From Flavobacterium johnsoniae UW101 (GTDB lineage Bacteria > Bacteroidota > Bacteroidia > Flavobacteriales > Flavobacteriaceae), in assembly GCF_000016645.1 (NCBI RefSeq), contig NC_009441.1:3038001-3102000 (forward strand): 64,000 bases of DNA, read 5' to 3'. A program made the position numbers and the translations under genes. Each line of letters opens with the position of its first letter. Within the stretch, counting starts at the first letter, position 1. The notes beneath the pieces are model-generated. The model was given only the letters and a program-made list of their open reading frames with translations. It did not search any database and was not told where the DNA came from. This document shows positions 11,485 through 26,970 of this stretch, piece by piece.

Positions 11485-11580
11485 ATTAGGAGCTATTTCC
11501 TGCTATCCGCTATATCTTTTTGTTTTTAAAGAAAAAACAAAAAGGATGCCGCTGCTATCAGGGCTAGGGGTGACCGTTAG
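11485..11580. repeat. flavobacterial hairpin repeat (CCTGCTATCCGC ... GGATGCCGCTGCTATCAGGG)
   Basis: A central long stem, CTTTTTGTTTTT with AAAAAACAAAAAG, is bracketed by CCTGCTATCCGCTATA on the left and GGATGCCGCTGCTATCAGGG on the right, which are partly complementary. From memory this layout is a frequent intergenic element in Flavobacterium genomes. No ORF. Mobility mechanism not visible. Confidence 0.6.
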
Positions 11581-21407: not shown

Positions 21408-22697
21408 CTACCCCAAGAAACTCTTCAACTCCTCATAAGTCCTAATCTTCACACTAACTTTCTCCTCATTAATAACACTCTCAATTTGAGCAGGAATAGG
21501 AAGTGTAATTCCTAGCGCCGGTTCAACAACATCTAAGAATTTAATAGGATGCGCTGTTTCTAAGAAAACACCAATTGCGTTGGGGTGTTTTTCTAGTTCT
21601 TTTTTCAAACCTAAATAACCAACAGCGCCGTGCGGTTCTGCAATGTAACCATCTGCGTTATAGATTTTCTTTAGCGCTTCAAGCGTTTCTTCATCGGTAT
21701 AACTATAAGAAGAGAAATCTTTTTCGAAAGCTTTTAAGTCATTATTGTACAATTCCTGAATTCTAATAAAGTTGCTTGGGTTTCCAACGTCCATGGCGTT
21801 AGAGATTGTTGCTTTAGAAGGTTTCGGGTCGTATTTTCCGTTTTCTAAGAATCTTGGCACGGTGTCGTTTACGTTTGTAGACGCAACGAAATGTTCAATC
21901 GGCAAACCTAATTTTTTTGCCATAATTCCGGCGCAGATATTCCCGAAGTTTCCGCTTGGGCAAGAGAAAACTAAAGGTTTGTTTTGGCTTTTTAATGCTT
22001 TGTAAGCAAAGAAGAAATAAAACATTTGCGGTAACCAGCGCGCAATATTAATAGAGTTAGCCGAAGTCAGGTTTTTATGCGCTAAAGTTTCGTCTAAAAA
22101 CGCTTTTTTCACCATATCCTGACAATCGTCAAAAACACCGTCAACTTCAAGTGCTTTAATGTTTTGCCCTAAAGTCGTCAATTGTTTTTCCTGAATATCG
22201 CTCACTTTTCCTGACGGATATAAAATGACAACATCAACGCCGTCAACGCCAAGAAATCCGCTTGCAACAGCTCCGCCTGTATCTCCGGATGTAGCTACTA
22301 AAACGGTGTTTTTAGCGTCTTTTTTGTCTTTATTGAAATAGCCCAGACAACGCGACATAAAACGCGCTCCAACGTCTTTAAACGCCATTGTCGGCCCGTG
22401 AAATAATTCTAACGAATAGATTCCGTTTTCGACTTTCACAACTGGAAAATCAAAAACTAAAGTTTCAGCAATGATTTCTTTTAGTTTTTCTGCTGGAATT
22501 TCGTCGCCAACAAATTGTTTAATCGCTTCAAAAGCAATTTCTTCATGGCTTAAACTTTCGATTTTATCAAAAAATGAAGGATCAAGCGGTGTAATGCTTT
22601 CTGGGAAATATAATCCTTTGTCAGTTGCTAATCCTTGTATAACAGCTTCCTGAAAAGAAACTTTTGGGGCATTATGGTTTAAACTGTAGTATTTCAT
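21408..22697 (-). CDS. thrC: threonine synthase
   Basis: Last step of threonine synthesis: O-phosphohomoserine to threonine and phosphate with PLP. The 429-residue length fits the E. coli-type class. Visible are MKYYSLNHNAPKVSFQEAVIQGL at the start, the PLP-lysine motif HGPTMAFKDVGARFM, VATSGDTGGAVASGF, the phosphate-binding SCPSGNFGNICAGIMAKKLGLP, and GYIAEPHGAVGYLGL near the end. Third gene of the thrABC cluster, 94 bp after thrB with an inverted repeat in the gap. ATG at 22695-22697. Confident. Confidence 0.96.
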   Translation of the reverse strand: MKYYSLNHNAPKVSFQEAVIQGLATDKGLYFPESITPLDPSFFDKIESLSHEEIAFEAIKQFVGDEIPAEKLKEIIAETLVFDFPVVKVENGIYSLELFHGPTMAFKDVGARFMSRCLGYFNKDKKDAKNTVLVATSGDTGGAVASGFLGVDGVDVVILYPSGKVSDIQEKQLTTLGQNIKALEVDGVFDDCQDMVKKAFLDETLAHKNLTSANSINIARWLPQMFYFFFAYKALKSQNKPLVFSCPSGNFGNICAGIMAKKLGLPIEHFVASTNVNDTVPRFLENGKYDPKPSKATISNAMDVGNPSNFIRIQELYNNDLKAFEKDFSSYSYTDEETLEALKKIYNADGYIAEPHGAVGYLGLKKELEKHPNAIGVFLETAHPIKFLDVVEPALGITLPIPAQIESVINEEKVSVKIRTYEELKSFLG

Positions 22698-22791: not shown

Positions 22792-23712
22792 TTAAATAAT
22801 TCTTACGCCGTCTGGGTTAATCTTCGAAACGTGAATTTCATACGGCAAATTCATTTTTTCGTAAACGTCGCTCATGGCTTTTGCGATTTGGTCGGCGGTT
22901 TCTTTTCCTCTGCTTAAAGCGAAAATAGACGGACCAGAACCTGAAATTCCAGAACCTAAAGCGCCGTTTTCGTAAGCCGTTTGTTTGATTTGGTCAAAAC
23001 CAGGAATTAAAACACTTCTTAATGGCTCAACGATTTCATCATGAAGCGAACGTCCAATTAATTCGTAATCTTTAGTGTAAAGACCTGCTACTAATCCGCC
23101 CACATTTCCCCATTGCATAATGGCACTTTTTAGGGAAACATTTTGTTTTAAAACCGAACGCGCGTCAGAAGTTTTTAACTCAATTTGCGGGTGAACCACT
23201 GTTGCGTACAATTCCTCTGGACTGTCAATTCTGATAATGTCAAGCGGGGCATAACTTCTTACCAAAGTAAAGCCGCCTAAAAGGGCAGGAGCAACGTTGT
23301 CGGCATGTGCGTTTCCGCTGGCTAATTTCTCGCCCTGCATCGCAAACTGAACCAAATCTTTACGCGAATACGGTCTTCCTAATAATTCATTAATTCCGAA
23401 AACCGCTCCCGCAGAACTTGCAGCACTGCTTCCAATTCCGCTTCCCGCTTTTATGTGTTTATAAATTTCGATTTCGAATCCAAAATCTAGTTCGTCCAAA
23501 GTTTCTAACATTGCCAAAGCAGCAACTCCGGAAACGTTTTTCTCGGTTTCCAAAGGTAAATCGGCACCTACAATTTTAGTGATTCGAACTCCTTTTTGAT
23601 CGACTTTTCGAACAATCATTTCATCGCCCGCATTGTCTAAGCAAAGTCCCAATACGTCAAATCCGCATGAGAGGTTTGCGATTGTAGCGGGACAGAATAA
23701 TTTTATTTCCAT
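22792..23712 (-). CDS. thrB: homoserine kinase
   Basis: GHMP-family kinase that phosphorylates L-homoserine to O-phosphohomoserine. 306 residues. Motifs: N-terminal KLFCPATIANLSCGFDVLGLCLD, the GHMP phosphate loop AGSGIGSSAASSAGAV, and the C-terminal glycine-rich GALGSGISGSGPSIFAL. Length and order match the family. Second gene of thrABC, 167 bp after thrA with a repeat-filled gap. ATG at 23710-23712. Confident. Confidence 0.96.
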   Translation of the reverse strand: MEIKLFCPATIANLSCGFDVLGLCLDNAGDEMIVRKVDQKGVRITKIVGADLPLETEKNVSGVAALAMLETLDELDFGFEIEIYKHIKAGSGIGSSAASSAGAVFGINELLGRPYSRKDLVQFAMQGEKLASGNAHADNVAPALLGGFTLVRSYAPLDIIRIDSPEELYATVVHPQIELKTSDARSVLKQNVSLKSAIMQWGNVGGLVAGLYTKDYELIGRSLHDEIVEPLRSVLIPGFDQIKQTAYENGALGSGISGSGPSIFALSRGKETADQIAKAMSDVYEKMNLPYEIHVSKINPDGVRII

Positions 23713-23879: not shown

Positions 23880-26327
23880 CTAAATGTTTCCTATTCGAAT
23901 AACGTCAGCAAAAATTCCTGATGCTGTCACAGCTGCTCCGGCACCGGCTCCTTTGATTAATAAAGGCTGATCTACGTAACGATCTGTGTAGAAAAGCACG
24001 ATATTATCTTTTCCTTCTAAATTGTAGAAAGGATGCTCTTTTGGGATGAATTGCAGACCTACGCTTGCTTTTCCGTTTTCGAATTGTGCCACGTATTTCA
24101 ATCTTGAATCTTTGGCTAAAGCTTCTTTATAAATACCTTCAAAATGAGCAGCGTGTTTGATTAACGATGCGAAGAAATCTTCGTTGTTTGTTGTTGCTAA
24201 ACATTCTGCCGGCAGGAACGATTCGTTTGCAATGGCATCAATATCCATTTCGTAACCGCTTTCGCGAATTAAGATCAGGATTTTACGAGCCACGTCGATT
24301 CCGCTTAAGTCGATTTTTGGATCTGGTTCTGTAAATCCTTGTACTCCGGCTTCTTTTACCACGTCGTGGAAAGAGTTATTTTCGTCAAAATTGTTGAAAA
24401 TAAAGTTCAAACTTCCTGATAAAACCGCTTGGATTTTATGCACTTTATCGCCAGATGCAATCAGGTTTTTTACCGTATCGATAATTGGCAGTCCTGCACC
24501 AACATTCGTTTCAAACAAAAACGGAGCGTTGTATTGGCGGGATAAGCTTTTTAGTTTTTTATAATTGTCGTAAGCAGATGAACAAGCAATTTTATTACAA
24601 GTTACAACGGCAATACTTTCTTTTAAAAATTTCTCGTACATTTCAGATACACTTGCATTTGCTGTAATGTCTACGAAAATACTGTTACGTAAATTGAGTT
24701 CTTTTGCACGGGCGATAAATTCTGCCGCAACTGCATTTTCTCCTTTTTCCAAAGTCGACTGCCAGTCTTTTAAAGATATTCCGTCTTCATCAAAAATCAT
24801 TTTTCTTGAGTTTGATAAAGCAATTACGCGAACATTAATTTTTAAAACATCTTTTAAGAATTTCTTTTGGCTGTGAATCTGCTCGATGAATTTTTCTCCC
24901 ACATTTCCAACTCCCATTACAAATAAGTTGAGCTGTTTTGTGTTTTCTTCAAAGAAGTTTTCATGTAAAGTATTCAGTGCTTTTTTAACATCTCTTTCGT
25001 TAATTACAGTCGAAATGTTTCTTTCAGAAGCACCTTGCGCGATTGCACGAATATTTACGTTGTTTTTTCCTAAAGTACTGAACATTCTTCCGCTCAATCC
25101 CTGGTGATTTTTCATGTTTTCACCCACCAAAGCAATAATGCAAAGGTCTTTTTCTACATAACAAGGATCGATTTTGTTTTGCGAAATTTCGATTTCAAAA
25201 GCTCTGTTAATTGCAGCTTCGGCTTTATCAGCATCAGAATTCAGGATTCCGATACAAATTGAATGCTCAGAAGAAGCCTGAGTAATAAAAATCACGTTGA
25301 TTTTTTCCTGAGACAATACTTCAAACAAACGTCTTGACGAACCCGCAACTCCAATCATTCCCGGACCTTCAAGAGTTACAAGTGAAATATTATCGATATG
25401 GCTTATTCCTTTTACAACGGTATCTTTTGATACAACCGTGTCAGAAATTAAAGTTCCAACAGCTTCCGGCTCAAAAGTATTTTTGATTAAAATAGGAATG
25501 TTTTTTCTTAAAACCGGCTGAATTGTTGGCGGATATAAAACTTTGGCACCAAAATGCGACAATTCCATCGCTTCCTGATATGAAATGTTTGCAATTGGCT
25601 GTGCTTGTTTTACGATTTTTGGGTTTGCAGTAAACATTCCGTTTACGTCAGTCCAGATTTCCAATTGTTCAGCATCTAAAGCTCCTGCTATAATTGCAGC
25701 AGTATAATCAGAACCGCCGCGTCCTAAAGTCGAAGTAATTCCGTCTAAAGTCTGCGCAATAAATCCTGGAAGAATATTGATTTTTGCTTTATTTCCAGCA
25801 AAATATTCTTTAATCAGCTGATTTGAAACTTCAAAATTAACAGCTGCTTTTCCAAAATTATTATCAGTTTTAATTAATTCACGACTGTCTTTATAAACGG
25901 CATCTTTTTCAGTTTGCTGAAATGCCTGAGCAATGATGAATGATGAAAGTAATTCTCCAAAACTTAAAATAGTATCGGCAGTTCTTGGAGACAATTCGCC
26001 TAATAAGAAACAACCGTCTAATAAAGTTTCTAAATGATTAATAATTCTTTTTACATGGCTTAAAAGACTGCTTTGTTCACTTACAGGAATTAGTTCTTTT
26101 AAAGTATCAAGGTGTTTTTTCTCGATTTCGGCAACAACTTCTCTAAAGCTTTCATCGTTTGCCGCTGCTTTTGCTGCTGCAGATTGAAGTAAATCGGTCA
26201 CTTTGCTCAGTGCAGAAACTACAACAACAAGTTTGTCATTTGCAGCTTTTTTATTAACAATTTCGAGAACAAGTTTTATATTTTGAGCATTGGCTACAGA
26301 AGTTCCGCCAAATTTTAATACTTTCAT
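23880..26327 (-). CDS. thrA: bifunctional aspartate kinase / homoserine dehydrogenase I
   Basis: Catalyses the first and third steps from aspartate to homoserine. 815 residues from the ATG at 26325-26327, chosen because MKVLKFGGTSVAN is the family N-terminus; a longer frame upstream adds 16 unrelated residues. Aspartokinase domain about 1-290 (KFGGTSVA, GRGGSDYTAAIIAGAL), two ACT domains about 310-450 (SLVTLEGPGMIGVAGSSRRLF, CIIALVGENMKNHQGLSGRMF), homoserine dehydrogenase about 465-815 (MGVGNVGEKFIEQI, SGSLNFIFNNFDEN, GFTEPDPKIDLSGIDVARKILIL). The ACT domains predict feedback inhibition by threonine. First structural gene of thrABC, preceded by a threonine-rich leader ORF 186 nt upstream. 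Confidence 0.96.
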   Translation of the reverse strand: MKVLKFGGTSVANAQNIKLVLEIVNKKAANDKLVVVVSALSKVTDLLQSAAAKAAANDESFREVVAEIEKKHLDTLKELIPVSEQSSLLSHVKRIINHLETLLDGCFLLGELSPRTADTILSFGELLSSFIIAQAFQQTEKDAVYKDSRELIKTDNNFGKAAVNFEVSNQLIKEYFAGNKAKINILPGFIAQTLDGITSTLGRGGSDYTAAIIAGALDAEQLEIWTDVNGMFTANPKIVKQAQPIANISYQEAMELSHFGAKVLYPPTIQPVLRKNIPILIKNTFEPEAVGTLISDTVVSKDTVVKGISHIDNISLVTLEGPGMIGVAGSSRRLFEVLSQEKINVIFITQASSEHSICIGILNSDADKAEAAINRAFEIEISQNKIDPCYVEKDLCIIALVGENMKNHQGLSGRMFSTLGKNNVNIRAIAQGASERNISTVINERDVKKALNTLHENFFEENTKQLNLFVMGVGNVGEKFIEQIHSQKKFLKDVLKINVRVIALSNSRKMIFDEDGISLKDWQSTLEKGENAVAAEFIARAKELNLRNSIFVDITANASVSEMYEKFLKESIAVVTCNKIACSSAYDNYKKLKSLSRQYNAPFLFETNVGAGLPIIDTVKNLIASGDKVHKIQAVLSGSLNFIFNNFDENNSFHDVVKEAGVQGFTEPDPKIDLSGIDVARKILILIRESGYEMDIDAIANESFLPAECLATTNNEDFFASLIKHAAHFEGIYKEALAKDSRLKYVAQFENGKASVGLQFIPKEHPFYNLEGKDNIVLFYTDRYVDQPLLIKGAGAGAAVTASGIFADVIRIGNI

Positions 26328-26508
26328 TTTGTGATATTTTTTAATAAGGTGCAATTTTGAGTAACAAAGGTTCAAAGGCTATTAACTGTGAGCTGAAACT
26401 GAAAACTGCGGCTATTTTTTTTCTTTTCTAAATGTTTTTCATGTATCCAATAACTCTCTTCTTTCAAGAAAAAAGTATAGGTAACCTAGGATTATATGTA
26501 AAAATGTA

Positions 26509-26523
26509 TACCCCTAAGGGGTA
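26509..26523 (-). promoter_or_regulatory. hairpin overlapping the end of the thr leader ORF
   Basis: TACCCC and GGGGTA arms separated by 3 nt. On the minus strand the 5' arm includes the last Thr and the Pro codon and the loop holds the stop, so a ribosome stalled on the Thr run would mask the arm. It is followed by a T-rich stretch. The full attenuator fold was not resolved by eye. Confidence 0.5.
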
Positions 26524-26618
26524 GTAGTTGTTGTAGTAGAAATTGTGGCAGCAGCAATTGCAGCTCCTGTTTGAGCTGTAATAATTGTAGATTGATATTT
26601 TATGCTGTTACTTTTCAT
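26514..26618 (-). CDS. thrL: threonine operon leader peptide (attenuator), 34 codons
   Basis: A short ORF, too short for routine ORF calling, on the same strand as and 186 nt before thrA. It starts ATG AAA AGT AAC AGC and encodes 34 residues with ten Thr and five Ile, including six consecutive Thr codons followed by Pro and TAG (residues 28-34). Enrichment in exactly the end product of the operon (Thr) and its derivative (Ile) is the signature of a translation-attenuation leader such as E. coli thrL. A TAnnTTTG element lies 10 bp before the ATG and a hairpin overlaps the stop codon. The symbol is by analogy; no homology to E. coli thrL is claimed. Function is inferred from composition and position. 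Confidence 0.8.
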   Translation of the reverse strand: MKSNSIKYQSTIITAQTGAAIAAATISTTTTTTP

Positions 26619-26628
26619 TTTGGTTTTC

Positions 26629-26636
26629 CAAAAGTA
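26629..26636 (-). promoter_or_regulatory. -7 element of the thr operon
   Basis: Minus strand TACTTTTG matches TAnnTTTG, 10 bp before the leader ATG, so the leader ORF would begin almost at the transcript 5' end. A TTG lies at 26665-26663, but the 26-nt spacing is longer than usual. Confidence 0.55.
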
Positions 26637-26639
26637 CAG

Positions 26640-26970
26640 CTTTTTATAAAAGTTAAAAACTTCAAAAGCCTTTTTACGAATATTTTAATAATTCAAATCT
26701 CTGCAATTCAATATTGAGCATTTGTTAAAATTAGATATGTTAAGTTGAGTTTTTAATATATTTCAGAATTCATTTATTAAAGAAACAGGATTGGCAGTGT
26801 TTTGATTTTTAATAAAAACTGCCGGAAAAAGTACTAGCTGACACCATTTTACTATTGTTAAAAAAATAAAAGTATAGAAATGTGCAGGTTAAATTTTTAA
26901 TTATTGTGATAAAATGTTGCTTTTTAATGTTGATTTGTTGAATTTTGACGTTTTAAAATTTGAAATCATC
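26640..26970. other. divergent regulatory region between the thr operon and hutH
   Basis: About 330 bp of AT-rich DNA between the thr leader promoter and the ammonia-lyase start. I see no gene. TTTTAAAATTTG about 15 bp before the hutH ATG resembles a -7 element with one base too many; no certain promoter for hutH. Confidence 0.35.

Follow-up and report, generated by a model that had tools for sequence, protein, structure and literature searches.

A conserved threonine-rich leader with paired box-hairpin modules, a putative threonine sensor, precedes thrABC in Flavobacterium johnsoniae

The window analyzed here, a stretch of 64,000 nucleotides of the Flavobacterium johnsoniae UW101 genome, carries a thrABC operon on its minus strand. 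The first operon gene, thrA (23880..26327, minus), is an ORF whose homologues are named bifunctional aspartokinase/homoserine dehydrogenase. It is followed by ORFs read as thrB (homoserine kinase, 22792..23712, minus) and thrC (threonine synthase, 21408..22697, minus), names that are presumptive and were assigned from sequence and gene order. A second ThrA, a paralogue (locus L002), lies directly after another ORF, and no leader was seen before it by eye. With Rfam at gathering score the window gives a single hit, a Flavo-1 RNA (RF01705, 79.9 bits, 11492-11569, minus).

Direct reading of the sequence upstream of thrA places a leader ORF of 34 codons plus stop at 26514..26618 (minus; ATG at 26618-26616, TAG at 26516-26514), which is also conserved in relatives. 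The encoded peptide, MKSNSIKYQSTIITAQTGAAIAAATISTTTTTTP, contains ten Thr and five Ile codons. Six of the Thr codons form an uninterrupted run (26520..26537, minus), followed by the Pro codon CCT and then TAG, and 186 nt lie between the leader stop and the thrA ATG (26327). The octamer TACTTTTG (26629..26636, minus), located 10 nt before the leader ATG, fits TAnnTTTG, which we take to be the Bacteroidota-type promoter consensus and on that basis call promoter-like. Hairpin H1, TACCCC-TTA-GGGGTA (26509..26523, minus), spans the last Thr codon, the Pro codon and the stop, and is seen in the sequence, in the fold and in relatives. The ORF with its codon counts and its distance to thrA, the TAnnTTTG element at 26636-26629 and the 6-bp hairpin at 26523-26509 had each been named in an original prediction made from this DNA, and all are present as described. 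When the leader was folded as a whole (26430-26636), its stability was above that of 199 of 200 shuffles (z -2.74), and the piece 26460-26550 folded alone did no better than shuffles (z 0.07). Across 197 leaders, the nearest TAnnTTTG ends 9-11 nt before the leader ATG in 120, and the motif is absent within 60 nt of the ATG in 24.

To assess conservation within the genus, 199 Flavobacterium genomes were searched, which gave 30 thrA loci; to these were added 80 named contigs, the top 80 of 327, and a wide set of 100 further upstream regions taken from the thrA places listed in the 199-genome search. ThrA identity to named contigs reaches 96%, in keeping with a Flavobacterium. A start-codon pattern oriented 109 of the 110 close-set loci, yielding 91 distinct regions; it missed L110, though the leader is visible there. 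The strict pattern of Thr run, Pro and stop occurs in 90 of these 91 regions. The remaining one (L069, F. johnsoniae CI04) has the run without the stop: its H1 loop reads TTCG where TTAG is found elsewhere, and its ORF extends 28 codons further, so that a ribosome would continue through H1 and through the box2 and H2 elements described below. L069 is a natural variant worth testing for expression. The Thr run is kept in most leaders of the wide set while the rest of the peptide diverges. In 89 of 90 dereplicated leaders, which were chosen by the presence of H1 and box2, Thr and Ile account for 370 of the 445 codons that precede the H1 ACC codon (320 Thr, 50 Ile), and mean entropy at codon positions 1, 2 and 3 is 0.65, 0.78 and 1.48 bits. 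Because third positions vary most, the Thr run appears to be kept as amino acids, with selection on the peptide. Alignment of thrA upstream regions across Flavobacterium had been proposed as the check on the original prediction, and it returned conserved Thr/Ile runs within variable surrounding peptide; the loss of the ORF in close relatives, which would have told against that prediction, was not seen, as all 91 distinct close regions hold the leader (one without its stop). A chance ORF overlying a structured untranslated RNA would accommodate the nucleotide-level elements box2, H1 and H2, but it is hard to reconcile with the codon-position pattern, the Thr/Ile content and the retention of the Thr run amid a varying peptide, and we regard it as extremely improbable.

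H1 was examined in 187 distinct Flavobacterium regions selected on thrA only. A 5-bp CCC-stem hairpin is found in 179 of them versus 13 of 1870 Markov resamples, and H1 followed 9-12 nt on by an exact CATATMA in 171, versus none of the 1870 resamples. By group, H1 and exact box2 are both found in 91/91 close and 80/96 wide regions; one or the other is missing in the remaining 16 wide regions. The combination CCCC-GGGG-CATATMA occurs at one place in the F. johnsoniae genome. Covariation on H1 is weak, as it was in an earlier count: among 57 sequences three of the five pairs are invariant and one pair fails in 10, and letters as well kept as these leave covariation little to show. In three loci of family f8 (L396, L399, L402), an H1-like hairpin over the last Thr codon and the stop has G and C swapped between its arms (ACGGG...CCCGT), hinting from sequence that pairing matters there.

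These leaders tend to carry two copies of an 11-nt box, ACATATMATYC, one near the leader ATG and one after H1. In the window, box1 (AAATATCAATC, 26590..26600, minus) matches the consensus at 9 of 11 positions, lies 18 nt after the A of the leader ATG and is followed, inside the leader ORF, by hairpin H0 (CAGCTC-AAACAG-GAGCTG, 26561..26578, minus). Box2 (ACATATAATCC, 26489..26499, minus) lies 10 nt after the GGGGT of H1 and is followed by hairpin H2, ACTTTTTTCT-TGAA-AGAAGAGAGT (26453..26476, minus). Box2, in the form ACATATMATCC, stands 10-11 nt after H1 in 166 of 171 regions. Box1 scores at least 9/11 in 129 of 196 leader regions versus about 19 expected, the consensus having been noticed in the same data on which it was scored. 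With the leader ATG placed, the count is 130 of 197 leaders (77/82 close, 41/85 wider Flavobacterium, 12/30 other loci), and 121 of these 130 boxes are at +17 to +19. The other 67 leaders, including 44 of the 85 wider Flavobacterium loci, fall below 9/11. The offset is +18 in 113 of the 121; the eight at +17 or +19, all outside Flavobacterium, shift the box into the two remaining frames, which makes box1 look like a nucleotide element. The boxes are predicted to be mostly unpaired (mean 0.68 versus 0.53 over the leader, 64 leaders); in this analysis and in the box1 counts, H1 was indexed one base off for some of the leaders, which we judged immaterial.

The hairpins that follow the boxes are kept in position. 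Of 90 dereplicated leaders, 83 have an H2, which in 57 of them begins 8-12 nt after box2; its mean energy is -4.0 kcal/mol versus -1.3 in resamples, and 79 of 90 leaders beat their own control mean. For H0 the figures are similar (found in 59 of 62 dereplicated leaders, 48 of the 59 starting 8-12 nt after box1; mean -5.2 versus -1.6 kcal/mol in resamples; 58 of 62 beating their own control mean). Stem sequences of H2 differ among loci (GUCAUUCC/GGAAUGAC, CGUGUA/UACACG, GUCUUUUUU/AAAAAAGAC and others), and the H0 stem is CAGCTC/GAGCTG in the window versus CAACTC/GAGTTG in relatives such as L027. From the H0 and H2 data, many leaders hold the same module twice, a box, about 9 nt and a hairpin, flanking the sensing codons. 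The original prediction did not mention this repeated module. The preferred spacing between box and hairpin suggests an RNA-level element, and on sequence grounds we put at about even the chance that the boxes act as RNA elements bound by a factor. Lambda nut-type sites consist of a single-stranded box, a short spacer and a hairpin. The thr modules share that order and the presence of two copies, a comparison of layout only, but the thr box sequence is unrelated, the hairpin sequence is not conserved and any role of Nus factors would be hypothetical. Pairing of box2 with downstream GGGGUAUA or GGAUACAU was visible by eye in the F. johnsoniae-like clade, and was rejected as it was not seen in the more distant loci.

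The boxes might instead be RNA polymerase pause signals that act as downstream DNA and synchronize ribosome and polymerase, with a first pause as the AUG leaves the enzyme and a second as H1 forms in the exit channel. The preferred distances from ATG to box1 (17-19 nt) and from H1 to box2 (9-12 nt, mostly 10-11) are compatible with how much RNA the polymerase encloses and with the spacing between hairpin and RNA 3' end at hairpin pauses. Such signals leave the hairpin about 9 nt after each box unexplained, and the 11-mer is in none of the 20 Bacteroid-trp leaders of Flavobacterium. ACATATMATYC was also rejected as a motif of other F. johnsoniae leaders: it occurs 18 times in the genome (4 times when read backwards), and all places but the thr one and L341 fall within a stop-to-stop frame longer than 100 codons on one strand or the other, a distribution that likewise speaks against pause signals. 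We consider the pause reading possible, though somewhat unlikely.

E. coli thrL (Rfam RF00506) is the gamma-proteobacterial leader/attenuator of the thr operon. The Flavobacterium leader resembles it in encoding a peptide rich in Thr and Ile immediately ahead of the thr operon, and differs in being almost without an intrinsic terminator and in its repeated box-hairpin modules. At gathering score no part of the window matched the Rfam models for Thr_leader (RF00506), Bacteroid-trp (RF01692) and the T-box, and neither did 26330-26660 at E<=10. A strict terminator scan (stem of at least 5 with at least 3 G-C pairs, followed by 8 bases with at least 6 T) scored in 14 of 187 thr upstream regions and in 4 of 935 resamples. 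At or after H1, it scored in only two (L075, L152) of the 179 regions with H1; L213, which lacks H1 by the CCC-stem test, has a strict terminator as well. As a positive control, the same scan found a terminator in all 20 Bacteroid-trp leaders of Flavobacterium. The one in the F. johnsoniae genome, identified by its Rfam match (MRTIMNNTWWWNNLRQTS, G000:C1:5912047-5912172, corresponding to L360 1501-1626), has a strong terminator; it is likewise an amino-acid leader peptide of the same phylum and genome, with a run of three Trp, and the trp leaders are set apart from the thr leader by their strong terminators and by the missing box. A consensus terminator scan flagged H1 with its tail as weakly terminator-like, the sole such hit at this leader. 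In folds of 17 loci and the window, H1 and the later hairpin form mostly side by side, and no alternative (antiterminator) pairing common to the loci was found in the 17. An intrinsic terminator formed by H1 or H2 was rejected as a general feature on the scans of relatives, and a thrL-like pair of terminator and antiterminator, as implied by the original prediction, was not supported as such (2/179 for thr versus 20/20 for trp).

The distribution outside the genus was examined with two models, R1 (E<=0.1) and R2 (E<=0.05), run against 395 genomes of the phylum. R1 matched 43 and R2 44 genomes, once per genome at those cut-offs. R2 was built on an alignment in which a second match of L123 is doubtful and the L330 row is weak. 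Matches with both models are in the own family, in another family of the order (f2), in f4 (of the class) and in f21; a single f3 match with R1 was lost with R2. Among 30 fetched loci (L303-L332, from model matches and pattern hits), tblastn located thrA in 27, and the other three (L322, L325, L331), which have no thrA, were taken as chance matches. Family f21 is probably Balneolaceae, since the ThrA of its locus L306 has homologues at 63-72% identity named Balneolaceae, Balneola and Gracilimonas.

A separate scan covered 60 thrA regions outside Flavobacterium, drawn from 113 genomes with ThrA after nine genomes known to bear the element were left out. A Thr/Ile leader at cut-off was found in 15 of the 60, compared with 0/300 resamples and 0/60 antisense regions. 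The other 45 regions, including 8 of 9 from f21 and all eight from f15, had none at cut-off. Thr/Ile leader peptides thus precede thrA in several Bacteroidota families. A strong terminator accompanies the leader in five of five f3 loci (L389, L392, L393, L395, L403) and in one of six f14 loci (L414), and is absent from the nine Thr/Ile leaders of f1, f4, f8 and f21. The f3 and f14 leaders (e.g., MIFNTSIITTIIITTG) belong to the same operon and use the same regulatory codons as the box type, but have a strong hairpin and U-run after the leader and no box by eye. Leader control of the thr operon would accordingly be wider than the box type, and judging from these sequences the phylum holds both a terminator type and a box type of putative threonine leader, each in at least part of it. 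Five f15 loci (L417, L419, L420, L423, L424) have strong terminator-like hairpins before thrA without a Thr/Ile leader at cut-off; these could mark the end of the preceding gene or another control. At locus L225 the gene behind the leader element is thrB, not thrA, the protein being identified by eye.

These loci bear on whether the Flavobacterium leader is a classical ribosome-mediated attenuator whose intrinsic terminator was overlooked by simple scans. The candidates would be H1 with the following UACAUUUUUA, or GGGGUAUA...UAUAC before a U6 run in the clade. In keeping with this are the terminator-like mark that the consensus scan gave to H1 with its tail, the strong terminators at the thr operon in the f3 loci and the one f14 locus, and f8 locus L399, which by eye shows a 4-bp hairpin with six U, below the stem limit of the strict scan. 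Set against it are the strict-scan counts for thr and trp leaders given above, H1 tails that are not U-rich in L151, L311 and L330, and sequence after H2 that is mostly A-rich in the loci inspected. The missing terminator argues against classical switching, and we judge an overlooked one quite improbable.

Between the leader and thrA the sequence is less constant. The distance from H1 to thrA ranges from 90 to 276 nt across loci, and after H2 some close relatives have about 78 nt (window ~26415-26335, minus, CGCAGTTTTCAGTTTCAGCTCACAG...) that others lack before thrA; this stretch is possibly an inserted repeat. Translational attenuation could also make use of hairpins and a leader ORF ahead of a gene, with the structures determining whether ribosomes can reach the thrA start codon or reinitiate at it, and nothing more specific points to it. 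The variable H1-to-thrA distance and the extra sequence in part of the clade argue against masking of the thrA start, and translational control seems to us very doubtful. Rho-dependent attenuation is unlikely. There, release of the leader ribosome would let the G-poor stretch before thrA load Rho, and a stalled ribosome or the modules would prevent it. In its favor, 63 Flavobacterium loci have a C/G ratio after H2 of 1.65 and 21 distant loci one of 2.75, compared with 1.24 in the 70 nt before 37 window ORFs; within the genus, though, the C excess is small, and the control comes from the F. johnsoniae window, with none for the distant loci.

Leader-peptide attenuation in flavobacteria is already published: strong clues for it before amino-acid operons were described in F. 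psychrophilum, with pheA and hisG 5' elements named, and thrA does not occur in the main text of that article (PMC9723704). Bacteroid-trp is listed in a table of PMC2864571, leader-like sORFs in B. thetaiotaomicron are mentioned in PMC7366714, and a gamma-proteobacterial origin of known attenuator motifs is suggested in PMC3766115. Amino-acid leader peptides of Bacteroidota are therefore less undescribed than the original prediction supposed, given the F. psychrophilum article, as far as its main text goes, and the Rfam Bacteroid-trp family. No account of a threonine leader of Bacteroidota, or of the thr box-hairpin element, is among the titles listed, a scope that takes in few subscription papers; Lopatovskaya et al. 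(2010) may bear on it. A histidine leader, sought by a His-codon pattern, gave nothing convincing by eye.

We favor, as the probable explanation, a translated Thr (and Ile) sensor that controls thrABC transcription and is of a terminator-less, box-hairpin type. A ribosome-read sensor best explains a conserved Thr/Ile run near the predicted RNA 5' end, and that the leader has such a role, with the ribosome reading threonine supply, is very probable. The idea of attenuation at the thr operon survives in the conserved Thr/Ile leader close behind a promoter-like element, and not in a thrL-type terminator switch. As the leader ORF begins near the predicted RNA 5' end, which the promoter-like element would put near 26622, translation would start at once. 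When Thr-tRNA is scarce the ribosome would stall in the Thr run, and when it is plentiful the ribosome would reach the stop; its position would then decide whether H1 and the two flanking box-hairpin modules are free or covered. The box1-H0 and box2-H2 modules would take the place of a classical intrinsic terminator. When free, they would act on RNA polymerase elongation, by pausing, antitermination or relief of Rho, and starvation would raise thrA expression if the assumed polarity is right. We lean toward a read-out at transcription elongation. Our more specific proposal, that a factor or the polymerase reads the pair of boxes bracketing the stall codons and so lets transcription enter thrABC, is tentative.

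If true, the leader would represent an antitermination or pause element gated by its leader peptide, and so differ from a switch between terminator and antiterminator. Should the boxes function in this way, control of an operon by a leader peptide could dispense with an intrinsic terminator, and the 11-nt motif could be used to search for the factor that recognizes it.
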